Source: Janthinobacterium silvisoli
GTDB lineage: Bacteria > Pseudomonadota > Gammaproteobacteria > Burkholderiales > Burkholderiaceae_D
NCBI RefSeq assembly: GCF_014200725.1
Contig: NZ_JACHCL010000001.1
Location: 1,054,001-1,118,000 of the forward strand
DNA length: 64,000 nt
Direction: 5' to 3'
Both the position numbers and the translations under genes were made by a program. Shown in pieces: positions 18,804-27,772 of this stretch (position 1 is the first letter of the stretch; the number at the start of each line of letters is the position of its first letter). Below the pieces are notes generated by a model. The model was not told the DNA's origin. It made no database searches and was given only the letters and a program-made list of their open reading frames with translations.

Positions 18804-19835
18804 TCACAATAATGAGTCTCTGACGACGCCGCGTGCCGCCATCGCGCGTTTCAGTTTGATCAAGGCTTCCTGCTGGATCTGGCGCACGCGCTCGCGCGTC
18901 ACGCCCATCTCTTCGGCCAGGGTTTCCAGGGTGGCTGGATCGTCATTATCCAGGCCGAAGCGGCGCATGATGACCACGCGCTGCTTGTCGGGCAGCTTGG
19001 TCAGCCAGTCACGCACCAGCACCGTCATTTCATGGTGTTCGGCGCGCGCATCGGGGCTGTCTTCGGCGGCGCCGGGCAGCATGTCCATCAAGGATGACTG
19101 TGGGTCGTTGTCGAGCGGCGCGTCGAGCGAGGTGGCATGTTCGGACAGGGCCAGGATATCCTGCACCTCTTCCACCGGACGGCCAACCAGGTGGGCGATG
19201 TCTTCGGCGGTGGCGTCCTTGCCGTCATGGTGCTGCGCTTCGAGGTGGTATTTGCCGCGCAGGATCTGGTTCAGCTCGCGCACCATATGCACCGGCAGGC
19301 GCACCGTGCGGGCCTGGTTCATGATGGCGCGTTCGATACTCTGGCGTATCCACCAGGTGGCGTAAGTGGAAAAGCGGAAACCGCGCTCGGGCTCGAACTT
19401 GTCGATCGCCCGCATCAGGCCGATATTGCCTTCTTCTATCATGTCGAGCAAGACCACGCCGCGGTTGATGTAATGCTTGGCGATCGACACGACCAGGCGC
19501 AGGTTATGCTCGATCATGGTTTGCCGGGCTTCGAAATTGCCCTGCTTGGCGAGGGTGGCGTAATGCACTTCTTGCGGCGCCGTCAGCAGGGGCCGCGTGC
19601 CGATCTGGTTCAGATAGTGCTGGGTGGTATCGGTCGACAGTTCGGCCGCCAGCACTTTTTTCAATTCATCGACACTTTCGACCAGCACGCTGACGCTGGC
19701 AGGCTCGGCGCCCTCGCCAGCCTCGACGGCGTCGATGCCGTCGAGTTCGCCAACATCTTCCGTCACGATGTCGTCCGCGCCCTCTTCCGGCGGATCCATG
19801 TCATCGTCCAGCTGGTCATGCGGCGCGTGTGTCAT
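18804..19835 (-). CDS. rpoS: RNA polymerase sigma factor RpoS
   Basis: RpoS is the stationary-phase and general stress sigma factor (343 aa). After an acidic N-terminal extension of about 55 residues come region 1.2 ([17 protein letters not shown]) and region 2 ([61 protein letters not shown]). Region 3 and region 4, with the helix-turn-helix [20 protein letters not shown], complete the protein. The nlpD gene lies 8 bp upstream, and in enterics nlpD contains the main rpoS promoter. A GC-rich hairpin without a T-run lies downstream near 18778-18793. Confidence 0.97.
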
Positions 19836-19843
19836 TGCTTTAC

Positions 19844-20779
19844 CTAACGGTTAGGCAGGAATTTCGAAGGATCGACAGGTTTGCCTTGTTGTCGGATTTC
19901 AAAGTGCAGCTTCACGCGGTCCGCATCGGAATCGCCCATTTCGGCAATCGTCTGGCCCTTCGTGACGTTCTGTCCTTCCTTCACCAGGATGCTGCGGTTA
20001 TGCGCATAAGCCGACAATAAACTATTATTGTGCTTCACGATAACAAGATTACCATAACCACGGATTCCGCTCCCGGCATACATGACTTTTCCTGCGCCAG
20101 CGGCCACCACCGGCTGCCCGGCCTTGCCGGCGATGTCGACGCCCTTGTTCTTGCCTTCGTCAAAAGTAGCGATGACCTTGCCTTCGGTCGGCCAGATCCA
20201 GCCGATCTTGTCGTCACCAGCAGACTGTGCCGCAGACGCCGCTGCGGATGCCGCCGGCGCAGCGGCCACGGCGGCCGGCGCGGTGGCCGCCGCAGGAGCA
20301 GGTTTGGCGGCCGGCGCATCGCCATCGGCGCGCAATTCAGCCAGAGTAGCATCGGAATAGGGACGCTTCTCGCCGCGCGGACCGGTTTTCTTTTGCACGG
20401 CCGGCGTCGATGGACGCGTTTCAATCGGTGGCGCCATCACAACGGCAGAGGTCTGGGCACCGCCCGACTCGCCATTCGGCGGCAGCACGCGCAACACCTG
20501 GTCGACCTTGATGTCGTTCGGATTGCTCAAGTCATTCCAGGTCACCAGATCGCGGTAATTCTGGCCATGTTCGAGCGCGATGCGCAACAGGGTGTCGCCA
20601 CGCTTGACCGTGTACAGGGCGGGATCCTTATCCTTGGCATCGTTTGCCGCCGCGCTGCTGGCCGGGGCCGGCTGGCGCTCCACGACCGGCGCCTGGACAC
20701 CCGTGGTGCCGCAGCCGCTGAGGATGGCAGCCAAGCTGAGGCTGCCTATGAGTAGCTTACTTTTCTTAATCATTCGCAT
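19844..20779 (-). CDS. nlpD: NlpD-like LysM/M23 lipoprotein (degenerate peptidase)
   Basis: This is a 311-aa lipoprotein with the signal motif LSGC. A LysM peptidoglycan-binding domain follows at about 55-100 ([27 protein letters not shown]), then an Ala-rich linker and a C-terminal LytM/M23 domain. The M23 zinc site is incomplete. The first histidine is absent ([12 protein letters not shown]), while AYAHN and LHFEIRQQG remain. This is the pattern of NlpD/EnvC, which activate amidases and do not cleave peptidoglycan themselves. The gene lies between pcm and rpoS, as in E. coli. Two in-frame ATG codons (20779, 20773) are possible. Confidence 0.93.
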
Positions 20780-20816: not shown

Positions 20817-21668
20817 TCATATGGTGCCCGGGCGCAAAGGTACGAAATGGCAATCTTCCAGGGTCTGGCTGGTCCACTCCATTTTCCCCACCCGGGTAAT
20901 CAGTTGTAAATGCTGCAATTTGGCGCCCACCGGCGCAACCAGACGCCCGCCGATTGTCAGCTGTTCCAACAAGGCATGCGGGACTTCCAGGCCGGCAGCG
21001 GCAAGGATGATGCCGTCAAAGGGCGCCGCCTGCGGCAGGCCAAGCATACCATCTCCGTACTGCAAACGCAGATTCGACACGCGCAAGGGCCGCAAATTGG
21101 CCTTCGCCAGCTCATGCAAAGGCTTGATGCGCTCGATCGAAAACACCTCTTTCGCCACCAGCGACAATACCGCCGCCTGGTAGCCACAGCCAGTACCGAT
21201 CTCGAGCACGCGCTGCAAGGGGCTGCCCTGGCGCATGACTTCGATCATGCGGGCAACGATATACGGCTGGGAAATCGTCTGGTGATGGCCGATCGGCAGC
21301 GAAGCATCGATATACGCTTGCGAGGCCAGCGCCTCGTCCATGAACAGATGGCGCGGCACGGCCAGCATGGCGTCCAGCACCACATGATCCTGCACACCCT
21401 GCTTGGCGATGCGCGCCACCATGGCGCGCCGTACGGCTTCGGACACCAGCGGATGTTGCCGCGATGGCGATGGCGCTAACGCTGACGCCGGCGCCCGCTC
21501 ATGCCCCGGTCCCTGCACACTGCGTCCCGCGCTTTGCGCCGCATTCTGGGTTGCCGTCTGGGGCGTGGCCACGCGCGATTGTGCCAGCGACTGCGCCCCG
21601 CCCTGCCGGGCAGGCTTGCCAGCGAGCGAGTCCAGGGTCAGGGGAAAGTTGCGCGGCTTGTCGCTCAT
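20817..21668 (-). CDS. pcm: Protein-L-isoaspartate O-methyltransferase
   Basis: Pcm repairs isoaspartyl residues in aged proteins using SAM. The methyltransferase core shows [27 protein letters not shown] and [22 protein letters not shown]. The MAxVPRHLF and [15 protein letters not shown] segments are typical. At 283 aa it is about 70 residues longer than E. coli Pcm. The excess is a low-complexity Ala/Gln/Pro-rich N terminus. The start codon overlaps the surE stop (ATGA, 21665-21668), indicating translational coupling. The order surE-pcm-nlpD-rpoS is conserved. Confidence 0.95.
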
Positions 21669-22402
21669 GCCAGACCTTTTGCCAATGCATCGAGTTCAGT
21701 GCGATGGGTCAGGTCGATCTGCAGCGGCGTGATCGATACCTGGCCTTGTGCCACGGCATGGAAATCCGTGCCGGGTCCGCCTTCCCTGGCCACGCCGACG
21801 GGGCCGATCCAAAAGATTTCACGGCCGCGCGGGTCGAGTGCGCGTATCACCGGCTCAGACGAATGGCGCCGGCCCAGGCGCGTGGCGACCGTGCCGCGCA
21901 ATTGTTCGTAGGGGATGGCAGGGATGTTTACGTTCAGCAAATAAGGCTTTTGCAAGTCGTCAAAGCGGCGCTCGACGATTTCCCTGGCCACGCGCGCGGC
22001 GGCATCCAGGTTGGCCCAGCCATATTCGGCCTGTGAAAAGGCGATGGCGGGAATGCCAAACAGATACCCCTCCGTCGCAGCCGCCACGGTGCCCGAATAC
22101 AGGGTGTCGTCGCCCATATTGGGGCCGTTGTTGATGCCGGACACTACCAGGTCGGGCCGTTCCTGCATCAGGCCCGTCAACGCCACGTGTACGCAATCGG
22201 TGGGCGTGCCATTGACATAATAAAAACCATTGGCGGCCTTGTGCAAGGATAAGGGCCGGTCCAGCGAGAGTGAATTGGAAGCGCCGGAGCGGTTGCTGTC
22301 CGGTGCGACCACTACCACCTCGGCGATAACGGCCAGCGCATCGGCCAGTGCCTGCAGGCCGGGCGCGAGGTAACCATCGTCGTTACTGATAAGAATTCTC
22401 AT
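21665..22402 (-). CDS. surE: 5'/3'-nucleotidase SurE
   Basis: SurE is a metal-dependent phosphatase acting on nucleoside monophosphates and short polyphosphate (245 aa). The metal-binding start [16 protein letters not shown] with its two aspartates, [17 protein letters not shown] and [24 protein letters not shown] are all present. It is the first gene of the surE-pcm-nlpD-rpoS group. A 71-bp gap separates it from the ATPase gene of the TIR module upstream, which runs in the same direction, so read-through from that module is possible. Confidence 0.96.
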
Positions 22403-22473: not shown

Positions 22474-24915
22474 CTAGCGTTGCCCAATGCCCGCTTCCGA
22501 CAATGCCCCCTCCAGCGCCAGCACCTCGTCTTCCTGCAAGGCCAGCAAGGCGGCCAGGTCGCCCTGCTGCTTGTACAGTCTTTTTAGCTGGCCCATGCCG
22601 CGCTTGCGCAGCCTGCCCGGCACGCCCGGGCGCAGCAGGCATGGCTTCAAATGCTCGACCAGCTCACCGGCCTGATGGTACTGCTCGCGCTCGATCATGT
22701 CTTGCAGCATGCCGATCATGCTACCCAGCGTATCGGGCTCCGTGGCGCGCTCGGCCAGGATGGTTTGCTGCAAATGGCGCGCACCATCGAGCATGCTTTC
22801 TTCCTGCGGACGCGGCATGCCTCCACTGCGGCCATTGAGCAGCCGGTCGCTGCCGCTGAGCACGGCGTCTTCCAGCAGGCGCGCTGCCTCGCTCTCGCCC
22901 TGCTGCTGCAGGGTGCCGGCCAGCTGCTTCTTGCTATGCAAGGTGTCCAGGTGGTCCTCGCCCAACAGGCGCGCATGCACTTCCAGCACCTGCTCCTGCA
23001 CGCTGCGGGCGGCATCGAGGTCGCCACGGCGCAGCAGCGCCTCGGCCAGCTTGCGCTGACTCATCAAGGTTTCCTGGTGATCCAGGCCCAGCGTGCGCTC
23101 ACGCGCCGCCACCTGGTTTTCGTACAGCTGGCGCGCGCCGGCCCAGTCGCCCTGGCGCGCCAGCACTTCAGCCAGCCGGTCGCGCGTGTCCAGGGTGGCG
23201 CTGTGGTCCATGCCCAAACGCCGCTCCTGCACTTGCAACACGGCCTCCAGCAGCTGCCGCGCCCCCTCGAGTTCACCCTGGCGTACCAGGGCCTGCGCCA
23301 GCGCCAGCTTGCTGTGCAGGGTATCGCCATGTTCGGCGCCGAACAGGCGCGTGCGCGCCGTCACCACGGTATCGAGCAAGGCCTGCGCCTGCGGCAAACG
23401 TTCCATCTGCAACAAGGTAATCGCCCGGCTATCCATCGCCGCCAGGCTCAAGGGATGCTCGGCGCCCAGCAACTGCGTGTAGCTGGCCAGCACCGCATCC
23501 TGCAAGTGCAGCGCCGCAACATGGTCGTGCTGCAGCACCAGCGTTTGCGCCAGGCAAGCCTTGGCCGCCAGCGTATCGGGATGCTCGCCACCCTGCAGGC
23601 GCTCGCGGATCCTGATCACTTCCTCCTCCAGCAGGCGCGCCTCGTCCAGCTTGTCGAGCTGGCGCAGCAACCGCGCCATGCCGCTCTTGGCAGCCAGGGT
23701 ATCGACATGTTCCTCGCCCAGCATGCGCGCGCGGATCTCGACGCTTTGCCGCAGCACGTCGAGCGCCTGCGCCATGCGGCCGTCTTTCCGGTACAACTCG
23801 CCCAAGCGTCCCAGGTCGCGCGCCAGCGGCAAGGCCACGGCCCGCCCCGGCTCGAGCAGCAAGGCATTCTGCGCTTCATTGATGGCCGCCAGCAAATGAA
23901 TTTCGCGGCTGGACTGCCACGGAAAATAGCCGCCCGTCAGCCAGTGCAAAAAGGCTTCGAAGGTGCGCGTCAGTGAAAAGCGGTCGCCGCCCTGGTCGAT
24001 GCGCACGGCCAATTGCTCGCCATAGGCAAAAGTCTTGGTCTGCTGCAATTGCACTTCATCGAAATAGCTGTCGAGGGCAATCTGCGGCAAGCCGTAGGAC
24101 ACCCGCAGCAGGCGCTCGAACATGGGCTGGAAGCCGGCGATGCTTTTTTGCGCATCGCCACGGCGCCATTCGGCACGCTGGGCGCCATCGCCCATTTCGA
24201 TGCGCGACGGCAGCGGGTACACCAGCAGCGGCCGCTGTTCATCTTCATGGCTGCGGCGGTATTCGATCGCCCGCGTGACGAGCGCATCGACGCCTTCCAG
24301 GCTTTGCCGGTTCGGCGTGAACACCACCACCAGCTTTTTGGGCAGCAAGGTGGTGCAGATGCCGGCGCTATCCGTGCGCCCCGTGCGCGAATCGACCAGC
24401 ACATAGCGGAAATGGGCAGCCAGGGTATCGGCAAAGCAGCGGAACAGGGCCGGGCAGGCGTCGAACAATTGATCCCAGCGCATCTGCGCCAGCCGCTCAC
24501 TGTAACTGGTGTCGAAACGCCCCGCCCGCATCAGGTACAAGGGACTGCCCTCGTCCACCCGCACCACGTATTGCTGCCAGTCGATGGCGTCGAGTACGCG
24601 CTGCGCCAGCGCCTCGTCGCTACCATGCCGGCTTGCGGGCTCAAGGCGAAAACGCTCCAGTTGCTGGCGGCAGGCCTCGAAAAACTCCAGCACGCCGGGG
24701 CGTTCCTCGTGCTGCTCGAAATAATGATGCAAGCCGGGCGCTTCCATGTCCCAGTCGAGCATCAGCACCGGCACGCTGGCGTTTTCGCGCCGCGCCAGCA
24801 GCACGGCGATATTTGACAGCGCCATGGTGCGGCCGGTACCCCCTTTGTAGGAGTAAAAGGTGACCACTTCGCCGGGCGCGGTCAGTGGCGGCAGAGAAAG
24901 ACGTTGGCATTCCAT
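22474..24915 (-). CDS. KGGTGR-type P-loop ATPase with kinesin-light-chain-like TPR array
   Basis: This 813-aa protein has an N-terminal SIMIBI/ParA-MinD-like NTPase domain. The deviant Walker A is KGGTGRT at residues 24-30, in place of KGGVGKT, so the usual second lysine is arginine. It is followed by VLMLDWDMEAPGL near 52 and YVLVDSRTGRTDSAG near 165. From about 345 to 730 come at least eight kinesin-light-chain-type TPRs, each with a G-x-x-H-x-x-T-L turn (GEEHVDTL, GGEHPDTL, GAEHGDTL, GLDHQETL, GEDHLDTL). A helical C terminus follows. Its start is 21 bp after the stop of the TIR gene, with AGGGA upstream. This architecture is seen in signalling and conflict systems. The function here is unknown. 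Confidence 0.85.
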   Translation of the reverse strand: MECQRLSLPPLTAPGEVVTFYSYKGGTGRTMALSNIAVLLARRENASVPVLMLDWDMEAPGLHHYFEQHEERPGVLEFFEACRQQLERFRLEPASRHGSDEALAQRVLDAIDWQQYVVRVDEGSPLYLMRAGRFDTSYSERLAQMRWDQLFDACPALFRCFADTLAAHFRYVLVDSRTGRTDSAGICTTLLPKKLVVVFTPNRQSLEGVDALVTRAIEYRRSHEDEQRPLLVYPLPSRIEMGDGAQRAEWRRGDAQKSIAGFQPMFERLLRVSYGLPQIALDSYFDEVQLQQTKTFAYGEQLAVRIDQGGDRFSLTRTFEAFLHWLTGGYFPWQSSREIHLLAAINEAQNALLLEPGRAVALPLARDLGRLGELYRKDGRMAQALDVLRQSVEIRARMLGEEHVDTLAAKSGMARLLRQLDKLDEARLLEEEVIRIRERLQGGEHPDTLAAKACLAQTLVLQHDHVAALHLQDAVLASYTQLLGAEHPLSLAAMDSRAITLLQMERLPQAQALLDTVVTARTRLFGAEHGDTLHSKLALAQALVRQGELEGARQLLEAVLQVQERRLGMDHSATLDTRDRLAEVLARQGDWAGARQLYENQVAARERTLGLDHQETLMSQRKLAEALLRRGDLDAARSVQEQVLEVHARLLGEDHLDTLHSKKQLAGTLQQQGESEAARLLEDAVLSGSDRLLNGRSGGMPRPQEESMLDGARHLQQTILAERATEPDTLGSMIGMLQDMIEREQYHQAGELVEHLKPCLLRPGVPGRLRKRGMGQLKRLYKQQGDLAALLALQEDEVLALEGALSEAGIGQR

Positions 24916-24936
24916 GACAGTTCCCTTTTGCGTGAA

Positions 24937-25542
24937 TTAACGTGGAAAATGCGGCGGCGGAACGGTGCGCCATACCGGCGGAATATCGGGCATCACGAAG
25001 CGGCTGCAATCGTGGCCGGGAGGGGTTGAACGCTTGAGCAAGTGGTAGTGCGTGGCAATACGCTGCACGATCCGTTCGATATCGGGCAAGTATTGGGGAT
25101 TGGACTTCAGGTCGCCGCTGGCCAGCGTATAGCCGGAAAAATCGACATACAGGCCCGGGCCGGTAATTTGCGCGGGCAGCCCGTCGGGGTGGCGCGTCAT
25201 GATGATGGGAATGATCAGATGGCTGGGCAGTTCATACCAGGCGCTGCGCTCCTGTTCGATCAGCTGCATGGCGGCGAACTCGCGCCGCGTATAGCCATGT
25301 GCTTCGTATTTGGGCGTGTAGAGCACGATCATGCACACGCTTTCGCACATGGCGCGCGCCACGCGCCGGTCCAGGTCGTCGCCGCCGCCCAGCTGTTCGC
25401 TATCGATGAACAGGGCGTCTTCGCGGTCCAGGTGCGGTTCCAGATAGCAGGCCAGCGCTTCGATCAAGTCATTCTTGAACTTGTTCATGAAAGCATACTG
25501 GCCGTGCGCATAACTCAAGAAACAGCCGTAGCGGATATTCAT
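24937..25542 (-). CDS. TIR-domain protein
   Basis: This 201-aa protein has a Toll/interleukin-1-receptor fold from residue 1 to about 140. YGCFLSYAHGQ is the beta-A/box 1 motif, ALFIDSEQLGGGDDLDRRVARAM the BB-loop region, and SVCMIVLYTPKYEAHGYTRREFAAM the region that holds the catalytic Glu in TIR NADases (here YTRREF in place of WCxxE). The glutamate is retained. A proline-rich C-terminal tail follows. The start at 25542 is set by AGGAGGGG five bases upstream. It is the first gene of a pair with the KGGTGR-TPR ATPase. NADase activity is possible but not proven by sequence. Confidence 0.82.
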   Translation of the reverse strand: MNIRYGCFLSYAHGQYAFMNKFKNDLIEALACYLEPHLDREDALFIDSEQLGGGDDLDRRVARAMCESVCMIVLYTPKYEAHGYTRREFAAMQLIEQERSAWYELPSHLIIPIIMTRHPDGLPAQITGPGLYVDFSGYTLASGDLKSNPQYLPDIERIVQRIATHYHLLKRSTPPGHDCSRFVMPDIPPVWRTVPPPHFPR

Positions 25543-25659
25543 GGCATCCCCTCCTGTTTCCTGTGCCACTCTTGTCATTGCCAGATGTTGATATGGCAAG
25601 ACATGAGCCCACTCTAAACCGCTGAGCACGCACCCATTTGCGCTGGCGCAAAGATATAT

Positions 25660-25678
25660 CTGGCGCCTTGGGCGCCAG
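25660..25678. other. GC-rich hairpin between the helicase and TIR genes
   Basis: CTGGCGCC-TTG-GGCGCCAG is a perfect 8-bp stem. It lies 52 bp after the helicase stop on the minus strand. No T-run follows directly, so termination would be weak or factor-assisted. It separates the helicase from the TIR/ATPase pair. Confidence 0.4.
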
Positions 25679-25729
25679 TACCGTATGCAAGAGGAAAGAT
25701 GGCTGACGCGGCTGCGCCAGCCGGCAGGG

Positions 25730-27772
25730 TCAAGCCGCCTTGGAAGGCAGGTTGCGGAAGAATTCCACCACTTCGGCCGTGTCGCGCGTGCGCTTGAACG
25801 GTGGCAGGCTTTGCCAGATACGTTTGCCGTAAGGCTTGGAAATAATGCGCGGGTCGCAAATCATCAGCACGCCCCGGTCGCCTTCGTCGCGGATCAGCCG
25901 GCCGGCGCCCTGCTTCAGGTTAATGATCGCTTCCGGCAAAGAATGATGCATGAAGCCATTCTTGCCCTGCTTTTCCATCACTTCGATGCGCGCCGCCAGC
26001 ACCGGGTCGTCGGGCGGCGCGAACGGCAACTTGTCGATGATCACCAGCGACAGCGCATCGCCGCGCACGTCGACGCCTTCCCAGAAACTCTGGCTTCCGA
26101 TCAGCACGCCATTGCCGGCCGCACGGAACTGGTCCAGCAACTCGGTGCGGCCCCGGTCGCCCTGCACGAACAGGGGGAAATTCAGGCCACGCTGCTTGAA
26201 TTCGTCGGCCAGGCGCTCGGCCGCCCGCTTCACGGCGCGCAAGGTCGTGCACAGGAAGAAGGTGCGTCCACCGGCCGCCTCGATAATCGGCAAGGCGCAA
26301 TCGATGACGGCGTCCGTGTAGCCAATGGAATTGGGCTGCGGCAAATTCTGTGGCACGAACAGCAAGCCCTGCTCGCCATAATCGAACGGCGACGGCCAGG
26401 TATGCGACGGTTCGCCCTCCAGACCCATCTGTTCCGAAAAATGCTTGAAGTCGTTTTTCACGGCCAGCGTGGCGGAGGTAAAAATCCAGCTGCGCGGCGA
26501 GCCTTCGCGCTGGTTGTTGAAGATCGGTGCGATCGACAGCGGGGTCTTGTGTAATTGCAGGGAACTGGAAAACGCTTCCACCCAAAACACGGCTTCTTCG
26601 CCGGCAGCCACCTTGGCCTTGGGGTCAAACTTCCAGCTGCTCAGCTGCTGCGCCAGTTCCACGCCGCGCACACGAACCTGTTCCAGCGTTTCGGCCCGCT
26701 CCGCCTGGCTTTCCAGCACGGCCACCATGCCGTCGAGCTCATCCTTGAGCGTTTCGAGCGCGGGGAAGAAATCGCTCGAGGCAGCGATTTGCGGCAGGGA
26801 CAAGCGCACGATATCCTGCGGAAAAGTCAGGCGCAGGTCGCGCGCGGCTTTTTCCACCACCGTCACGGTCTTGGCCCAGTCGATGCCACGTGCGTGCGCC
26901 AGCCCTTCGGCCAGCACATCGCGGCACAATTCCAGGATTTGCGAGGTGGACACCGTGTTGCCAAAGAACAGGGTCGCCGTATCGGGCAGCTGGTGCGCCT
27001 CATCGAAGATGATAGTGTTGGCCGATGGCAGCAGCTCGGCCACGCCCGTATCTTTCAGGGCCACGTCGGCAAAGAACAGATGATGGTTGACTACCACCAC
27101 ATCTGCCTGCTGGGCTTCCTTGCGCGCCTTCATGACAAAACAATCCTGGTAATACTGGCACTCGGCGCCCATGCAGGTGTCGCGCGTGGACGTCACCAGG
27201 TTCCAGATCATGGCGTTCTCGGGCACCTTGGCCAGCTCGGCCTTATCGCCCGTATTGGTCATTTTCAGGAAACGCGAAATCTCGCGCAAATGGCCCACGT
27301 CGTCGCGCGAGGTCATGCGCCCGTTTTGCAAGGTGCGCTCCAGGTGGTAATGGCACAGATAGTTCGAGCGGCCCTTCAGCAGCGCCACCGAGACGGGCGC
27401 CTGCAAGGCCGCGCGCACAGTCGGTATGTCGCGCAGGAACAATTGATCCTGCAAGTTCTTGGTGCCTGTGGAAACGATGGTCTTGCCGCCCCACATCAGG
27501 GCGGGCACCAGATAGGCGAAGGTCTTGCCCGTGCCCGTGCCAGCCTCGGCCATCAGGGTGGTCTGGCTATCGATGGCGTTGGCAATCGCCTTGGCCATTT
27601 CAGTCTGCGAACGGCGCGGCTTGTAGCTGCCCACGGCAGGGCCCAGCGGGCCACCGGCGCCAAACAGACGCTCGATATCGGCATCGTGCTTGCCCGGTAC
27701 CGCGATGGCGTCAGATGGTACGTCGGCAGCGATACCATCTTGGCTAGCAGGCAATAAATTGTGATCGGTCAA
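25730..27772 (-). CDS. ATP-dependent DNA helicase, DinG/YoaA (XPD-like) family
   Basis: This is a 680-aa superfamily 2 helicase with 5'-3' polarity expected from family membership. Walker A is AEAGTGTGKTFAYLVPAL at about residues 75-92. The Fe-S cluster region has cysteines in YLCHYHLE and DTCMGAECQYYQDC. The DEAH box is IIFDEAHQLPD. C-terminal motifs include FWEGVDVRGDAL and QGAGRLIRDEGDRG. Members of the YoaA/DinG group act in repair of damaged forks and R-loops. It is likely cotranscribed with or near the small downstream genes only weakly. It has no visible defect. Confidence 0.92.
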   Translation of the reverse strand: MTDHNLLPASQDGIAADVPSDAIAVPGKHDADIERLFGAGGPLGPAVGSYKPRRSQTEMAKAIANAIDSQTTLMAEAGTGTGKTFAYLVPALMWGGKTIVSTGTKNLQDQLFLRDIPTVRAALQAPVSVALLKGRSNYLCHYHLERTLQNGRMTSRDDVGHLREISRFLKMTNTGDKAELAKVPENAMIWNLVTSTRDTCMGAECQYYQDCFVMKARKEAQQADVVVVNHHLFFADVALKDTGVAELLPSANTIIFDEAHQLPDTATLFFGNTVSTSQILELCRDVLAEGLAHARGIDWAKTVTVVEKAARDLRLTFPQDIVRLSLPQIAASSDFFPALETLKDELDGMVAVLESQAERAETLEQVRVRGVELAQQLSSWKFDPKAKVAAGEEAVFWVEAFSSSLQLHKTPLSIAPIFNNQREGSPRSWIFTSATLAVKNDFKHFSEQMGLEGEPSHTWPSPFDYGEQGLLFVPQNLPQPNSIGYTDAVIDCALPIIEAAGGRTFFLCTTLRAVKRAAERLADEFKQRGLNFPLFVQGDRGRTELLDQFRAAGNGVLIGSQSFWEGVDVRGDALSLVIIDKLPFAPPDDPVLAARIEVMEKQGKNGFMHHSLPEAIINLKQGAGRLIRDEGDRGVLMICDPRIISKPYGKRIWQSLPPFKRTRDTAEVVEFFRNLPSKAA

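Follow-up and report, generated by a model that had tools for sequence, protein, structure and literature searches.

What does a TIR protein do when its gene sits, with a single partner gene, between housekeeping genes? Most discussion of bacterial TIR proteins treats them as accessory parts of defence systems, and the question is raised by a locus of Janthinobacterium silvisoli that lies in a window of 64,000 nucleotides (the whole stretch of DNA that was analysed: NCBI RefSeq assembly GCF_014200725.1, contig NZ_JACHCL010000001.1, positions 1,054,001 to 1,118,000 of the forward strand). Both reading frames, the 21-bp gap between them and the neighbouring genes were read in the window, and the two-gene pair between dinG and surE has the coordinates given in the first-pass annotation. 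Pfam, NCBIfam and predicted structures also agree with its domain assignments, namely, a TIR protein of 201 amino acids (aa) and an 813-aa protein that joins a SIMIBI NTPase domain to TPRs. The anatomy, the fold, the conserved glutamate, the fixed place, the selection, the promoter geometry and the decay of the P-loop in the partner were computed directly. Our preferred answer, to which we give a little less than an even chance, is that the pair is a resident operon in which a probable TIR/nicotinamide adenine dinucleotide (NAD) enzyme works with a MinD-like/TPR scaffold or sensor partner under an activator promoter, serving as an immune, stress or social switch.

The pair occupies a fixed place across related genomes. 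When identical loci were joined and one locus at a contig end (L138) was left out, 132 loci merged to 115 distinct loci; the TIR and ATPase genes lie on the same strand in 114, are followed by surE in 107 and stand in the full order dinG-TIR-ATPase-surE-pcm in 92. The eight loci without TIR-ATPase-surE are those of Janthinobacterium sp. FT58W and the distant genome G1048, together with six that have no surE on the available piece of draft contig. Among 60 regions, the TIR gene was present in 50, with the ATPase gene on one strand in 48 of these, followed by surE in 47 and in the full dinG-to-pcm order in 35, a shortfall that is mostly due to dinG lying beyond the stretch or being cut by it. 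The recurrence of these genes in the same order in other species argues that the TIR-ATPase pairing is not due to chance. In the ten pair-negative regions, dinG and surE are 82 to 148 bp apart in three (L102, L103 and L104) and 1.1 to 1.9 kb apart in three others (L106, L107 and L108), and the remaining four show no dinG. An oxidoreductase gene on the opposite strand often lies between dinG and the TIR gene; in the window and its near relatives, dinG directly adjoins the TIR gene, with no such gene intervening. At L097 (2807-3784) and at the same place in relatives of several genera, a gene that is divergent to the TIR gene and that we take to be quinone-oxidoreductase-like leaves the palindrome described below intact. 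Frames that we presume to be transposase-like lie between dinG and the TIR gene at L116 (6793-7848) and L118 (1818-2777), and the pair is intact at both.

Within the genus, 36 of 40 genomes carry the TIR gene, including that of the window, and the matches there have 81-98% protein identity; it was not found in genus genomes G001, G014, G022 and G027. The first-pass annotation had suggested that the pair is a mobile or accessory module, which might be absent from the surE-dinG locus of close relatives; within the genus it is present there in nearly all of them. Across the family, the TIR gene is carried by 96 of 294 genomes, belonging to 5 of the 44 genera, in one copy each except for a split match in G300, and one genome of a TIR-positive genus (G173, genus code g18) has none. 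Even draws gave 2 of 398 genomes for the phylum and 6 of 399 for the order, five of the six being in the same family. Named carriers in the NCBI set, of which 80 of 140 relatives' loci were kept, include Janthinobacterium, Duganella, Rugamonas, Pseudoduganella, Massilia and Telluria, among others. A strong match to the ATPase was obtained in 38 of 100 genomes searched, and all 38 are among the 39 with a TIR match. Some genomes of the genus have other TIR_2 proteins, none of which is general, and the window genome has only the TIR protein encoded at 24937-25542. No plasmid or phage copies of the TIR gene were found by tblastn at an E value of 1e-3.

Selection on the TIR protein resembles that on its housekeeping neighbours. 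Among 22 Janthinobacterium-like rows with TIR identities of at least 87% (FT58W excluded), the median ratio of nonsynonymous to synonymous substitution rates (dN/dS) was 0.049 for TIR, 0.053 for SurE, 0.042 for DinG and 0.137 for Pcm; in the partner, it was 0.063 for residues 1-340 and 0.183, about threefold that of the NTPase part, for the TPR part. A tree was built by a quick method from SurE, Pcm and DinG (113 rows, 9 of them pair negative, with seven short or distant loci and rows without SurE or Pcm omitted) and has some long branches; on it, the presence of the pair requires at least four changes, which cannot be split into gains and losses. Over 102 rows (L234 and FT58W excluded), the Spearman correlation of TIR distances is 0.78 with Pcm distances and 0.54 with SurE distances, compared with 0.66 between SurE and Pcm. 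The GC content, with that of third codon positions (GC3) in parentheses, is 0.592 (0.757) for the TIR gene and 0.656 (0.818) for the ATPase gene, and it is 0.615-0.637 (0.720-0.794) for the SurE, Pcm, DinG and RpoS genes. From the fixed place, the tree, the distance correlations and the GC content, the operon is vertically inherited with some losses and is not a moving module. The fixed place and a TIR conservation similar to that of the housekeeping neighbours suggest a resident switch rather than a mobile defence gene. A mobile module was rejected on synteny, distribution and selection.

A distant cousin of the pair keeps an immune origin plausible. In G1048 (L234, 1-15001), which belongs to another Burkholderiales family and holds the only distant pair detected outside the family of the window, the same two genes are found, with a TIR protein at 30-32% identity; they adjoin a gene for a 2,062-aa CHAT/hydrolase (LCAT-like) protein, a gene for a TPR-S plus nucleotide-cyclase protein and more TPR frames. 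The G1048 pair looks accessory and conflict-like. Its conflict-type neighbourhood also speaks for an accessory, horizontally moving anti-phage module, as do the restriction of its TIR type, among 28 genomes of that family, to G1048, the threefold higher dN/dS of the TPR part in the window's relatives and the lack of the pair in some of them. Such a module is nevertheless improbable for the window pair, given its fixed place, single copy, housekeeping-like dN/dS, ordinary GC content and lack of a plasmid or phage copy. In PADLOC 2.0.0, whose library has no cut-offs, the two proteins gave no clear match to the models of one known anti-phage system: the best match of the TIR protein was PDC-S66 (E value, 0.007) and the ATPase matched PDC-M28B (50.8 bits; E value, 3.3e-14; best stretch, residues 16-73).

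The TIR protein matches Pfam TIR_2 at 35.7 bits (E value, 1.4e-8; gathering cut-off, 28), and TIR folds top the structure matches of its model (mean predicted local distance difference test score, 89.4). In VIA-align comparisons, in which Z differences under 1 count as ties, SPARTA TIR-APAZ ranks first (Z, 13.9; 2.7 Å over 135 residues), and the NAD-binding or -cleaving TIRs AbTir (Z, 12.2), SARM1 (11.5) and RUN1 E100A with NAD (11.3) also match. A single-sequence search of the TIR protein against solved structures gave no relative at an E value of 1. The length of the protein is 200-203 aa in 113 of the 115 distinct loci. The retained glutamate of YTRREF that the first-pass annotation had pointed out is residue 88, and Glu88, R86 and R87 are invariant in all 115 loci, the distant G1048 included. 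In a profile search, Glu88 aligns with the glutamate of WTEYE, WPARE and WCLEE in PDB TIRs (chains 7uxr, 4c7m, 4lzp, 4lqc and Roq1 [7jlv]). Glu88 is therefore placed, by alignment, at the predicted catalytic alpha-C glutamate position of NAD-cleaving TIRs, in keeping with the first-pass annotation, which put it in the catalytic region; nothing in the alignment sets it apart from a putative NAD pocket.

Several results weigh against an enzymatic reading. The model resembles adaptor TIRs (MyD88, Z of 13.3; IL-1RAcPb, 12.8; TRAM, 11.2) to much the same degree as it does enzymes, the Foldseek E values are modest (best, 7.9e-5), the profile matches to the five PDB TIRs shown are weak (E values of 0.004 to 0.32), and the modelled fold would be compatible with enzyme and adaptor alike, permitting NADase activity and proving none. 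It is conceivable, though rather unlikely, that the TIR protein is a non-enzymatic adaptor that builds a stationary-phase or surface-associated signalling scaffold with the MinD-like/TPR protein, Glu88 being structural; the location just before surE and pcm and the residue four before the glutamate, which is Tyr in 112 and Phe in 3 of the 115 loci and Trp in the PDB TIRs shown, would fit this, but Glu, Arg and Arg are unchanged at the catalytic position in every locus, and the first rank belongs to SPARTA TIR-APAZ, within the limits of ties. Because the glutamate is invariant, the enzyme reading is favoured, and the TIR protein is probably an enzyme that cleaves NAD or makes an NAD-derived messenger.

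The partner has the architecture of a MinD-like ATPase, and its P-loop is decaying. The 813-aa protein scores 125.4 bits with NCBIfam AAA_KGGVGR (NF047398; cut-off, 90) and contains seven Pfam TPR_10 stretches; in its structure model, a MinD/ParA-like domain at approximately residues 14-337 is followed by a TPR superhelix. The N-terminal domain matches the folds of McdA (Z, 22.2; 252 residues), MinD (21.8; 234 residues) and Soj (21.7; 249 residues), and a profile search links the partner to MinD at an E value of 6.5e-5. SIMIBI ATPases of the MinD/ParA kind have a deviant Walker A motif, KGGxGK[T/S], with both lysines. In the window protein the motif is KGGTGRT (residues 24-30), with Arg in place of the Walker A lysine, and Lys occurs at that position in none of the 109 partners that could be read (112 partners at the 115 loci, 3 of them without a readable motif). 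Of the 109, 70 retain the other signature lysine and 39 have lost it, while TIR residues Glu88, R86 and R87 are unchanged. The decayed motifs, such as ESGTARS, EGGPARN and DSAPARS, lie mostly, though not only, on the Massilia/Telluria side of the tree, where the state of this lysine requires at least four changes (101 rows), and three scanned partners of the Massilia/Telluria group fall under the AAA_KGGVGR cut-off (82.5, 70.8 and 62.2 bits). From this loss across partners, ATP hydrolysis is unlikely to be what the pair needs, and in several lineages the partner may be turning from a MinD-like ATPase into a scaffold.

The partner is 346-912 aa long in complete rows of the family and 974 aa long in G1048. 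In this set, the automatic frame call at L208 was faulty (18 aa), it took late starts at L124, L143 and L226, and the partners of L187, L201, L212, L217 and L226 run off their contigs. At L113, L114, L115, L117 and L126, a partner of only 346-417 aa stands next to a full-length TIR protein; those of L113 (346 aa) and L117 (417 aa) were scanned and retain the MinD-like match, with no TPR matches. The variability of concave TPR positions was not clearly higher or lower than that of other positions (one-sided shuffle, 0.77), as assessed with the 18 of the 22 dN/dS rows that have a partner of at least 810 aa. KGGVGR ATPases of a second type (618-619 aa) were observed at L235 (3708-6125) and L236 (1915-4371), directly preceded by what we take to be an MqsA-type zinc/HTH antitoxin-like protein; integrase-like frames lie near the L236 gene, which may be part of a mobile module.

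In FT58W (G003; L098/L171), the ATPase gene is gone, surE starts 62 bp after the TIR stop codon, and the TIR protein has changed last residues and retains Glu88. This genome is a point against a working two-protein unit, since in this strain either the TIR protein is silent or the partner is not needed. It also bears on a toxin-antitoxin arrangement, in which the ATPase/TPR protein would neutralise a TIR toxin: the tight adjacency and the combination of a small putative enzyme with a larger partner would suit such a system, but a TIR gene with Glu88 and no ATPase gene at its locus, a putative toxin gene that comes first in order and a core distribution make it very improbable.

For the preferred resident operon, the promoter region provides a candidate control point. 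In 113 of the 115 loci, the 200 bp preceding the TIR start contain a TTG-N8-CAA palindrome with the consensus TTTGCGCnnGCGCAAA, compared with 4.0 in mononucleotide shuffles, and it starts 64-127 nt before the TIR gene in 112. Each of these 112 has a TA(G/C/A)A(G/T)T hexamer 20 nt (98 loci) or 21 nt (14 loci) past the palindrome, compared with 3.7 expected by shuffling, and the spacer sequence between them has diverged among loci. With the hexamer taken as the -10 box, the centre of the palindrome would fall near -41. Class II activators of the CRP/FNR kind usually bind near -41, and the FNR site is also TTG-N8-CAA. The best reading of these sequences is that the TIR promoter is of the activator type, with a putative regulator site at the palindrome. 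Three points weigh against it: the hexamer pattern was picked after the sequences had been inspected, the loci counted are related to one another, so the counts lack independence, and in the window alone the palindrome with up to two mismatches is at chance level (1 found, 1.3 expected), so its weight comes from conservation across loci. A standard promoter scan did not report a TIR promoter. The perfect palindrome TTTGCGCCAGCGCAAA has a single copy in the 5.9-Mb genome. Allowing one mismatch yields 19 further sites, compared with 3 for a reversed control pattern; nine of the 19 were inspected, and all lie within mechanical frames of at least 80 aa (L251 near the start of a doubtful frame), and no regulon is claimed.

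A published quorum-sensing data set offers a possible input. Table 3 of PMC5080296 lists Jab_2c19720, a "TIR domain containing protein," with a log-fold change of -2.29 in the jqsA (autoinducer synthase) mutant of strain HH01, in the class "core genome minus Marseille" and with the JAI-1 motif marked as present. We infer that this is the same gene because no TIR family other than that of the window is general in the genus; HH01 is outside the 115 loci, and the published table carries no sequence. The N6 form of the published motif, TTGAN6/7TCAA (PMC5080296), shares the TTG-N8-CAA spacing. The exact motif occurs within 400 bp upstream of the TIR gene at only 2 of the 115 loci (0.5 expected) and nowhere in the window, which somewhat weakens the match to Jab_2c19720; with one mismatch, it occurs within 350 bp upstream at 38 of the 115 loci, compared with 12.7 expected. 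JAI-1 control of the window TIR gene is not claimed. Nothing on the window TIR gene was seen in the passages of PMC3566124 considered, and literature searches surfaced nothing on KGGVGR, Janthinobacterium TIR NADases or TPR-S conflict systems; a study of the pair may exist elsewhere.

Features of the TIR-ATPase locus, in window coordinates
Feature	Position	Strand	Basis
TIR gene, 201 aa; Glu88 (YTRREF) at the predicted catalytic-Glu position	24937..25542	minus	Pfam, fold, profile alignment
813-aa protein gene: MinD/ParA-like (KGGTGRT) domain, about residues 14-337, and kinesin-light-chain-type TPR array	22474..24915	minus	Pfam, NCBIfam, structure model
Palindrome TTTGCGCCAGCGCAAA, a putative binding site for a regulator at the TIR promoter, beginning 110 nt ahead of the ATG	25637..25652	strandless	
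-10-like hexamer TAGAGT, 20 nt past the palindrome	25611..25616	minus	sequence; geometry kept in relatives
Shine-Dalgarno AGGAGG of the TIR gene	25550..25555	minus	sequence
Two terminator-like stem-loops, after dinG and before the pair	25660..25722	minus	terminator scan
surE, downstream neighbour, 71 bp past the 813-aa gene	21665..22402	minus	
dinG-type helicase gene, upstream neighbour	25730..27772	minus	

The gene order on the minus strand is TIR, ATPase, surE and pcm, beyond which lie what we take to be genes for an NlpD-like protein (19844-20779) and RpoS (18804-19835). A longer TIR frame from GTG 25629 is present; the ATG at 25542 has the strong Shine-Dalgarno sequence and is conserved as the start among relatives. 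The terminator scan gave 12 sites over 7.2 kb on both strands, compared with 6.1 expected by chance. No terminator-like site was reported on the strand of the pair in the gap before surE, so transcription of the pair could run on into surE.

Taken together, we infer the following for NAD cleavage, control by the partner, input and purpose. The two-gene operon would be passed on with the chromosome and have an activator-type promoter of its own that switches it on, perhaps when cell density is high or as cells enter stationary phase. The TIR protein would probably cleave NAD or make an NAD-derived messenger, and the partner, lacking the Walker A lysine, would probably hold, place or cluster the TIR protein as a scaffold or sensor rather than act as an ATP-driven motor. 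The TIR product may then lower or rewire cellular NAD in an immune, stress or social response; phage defence, stress survival and social behaviour cannot be told apart from the sequence. A more specific form, in which a core TIR enzyme under growth-phase or quorum control, with its own activator site and a partner becoming a pure scaffold, acts as a resident innate-immune or cell-fate switch, is possible and is put forward tentatively. A TIR protein under purifying selection at a housekeeping level, with a fixed locus, a promoter site that is conserved and an ATPase partner that is decaying, makes a tractable case in soil bacteria for asking how TIR/NAD signalling operates outside mobile defence and whether ATP hydrolysis by the partner matters.

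Among known systems, the FxSxx-COOH peptide system resembles the pair in having a TIR-like protein and a TPR protein. The resemblance raised by the first-pass annotation stands to the extent that FxsC (NF040588; matched through FxsC_Nterm) and FxSxx_TPR (NF040586) score highest among the NCBIfam families for the two proteins, but both scores are below the curated cut-offs (39.9 of 130 bits and 167.8 of 300 bits, respectively), whereas the G1048 partner exceeds the latter at 516.1 bits. The FxsB radical SAM enzyme, which the annotation had not seen near the pair, scored at most 58 bits anywhere in the genome, against a cut-off of 370 (FxsA was not searched), and the window pair stands alone on the chromosome at dinG-surE; membership in this system as FxsC plus FxsT is extremely improbable. 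With the KGGVGR-variant AAA ATPases (NF047398), the window protein shares a score above the cut-off, and the motif decays in its Massilia/Telluria-group relatives. The window TIR shares the fold and the glutamate position with SPARTA TIR-APAZ, AbTir, SARM1 and RUN1, which we take to be active NADases; it differs from them in having only 11-18% identity over the aligned part, in being a stand-alone protein with putative activity and in having a MinD-like partner where they have Argonaute, STAND or ARM parts. The part of PMC7159879 (eLife 2020;9:e52696) considered here describes conflict systems in which MinD/ParA-like and AP-ATPase parts occur along with TIRs and TPRs, predicts that their MinD/ParA-like domains are inactive, which the P-loop decay fits, and links some of them to CRP-like regulators. 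Those systems are larger, have multiple genes and occur mainly in multicellular prokaryotes, whereas the window holds a two-gene locus that is core in an Oxalobacteraceae clade.

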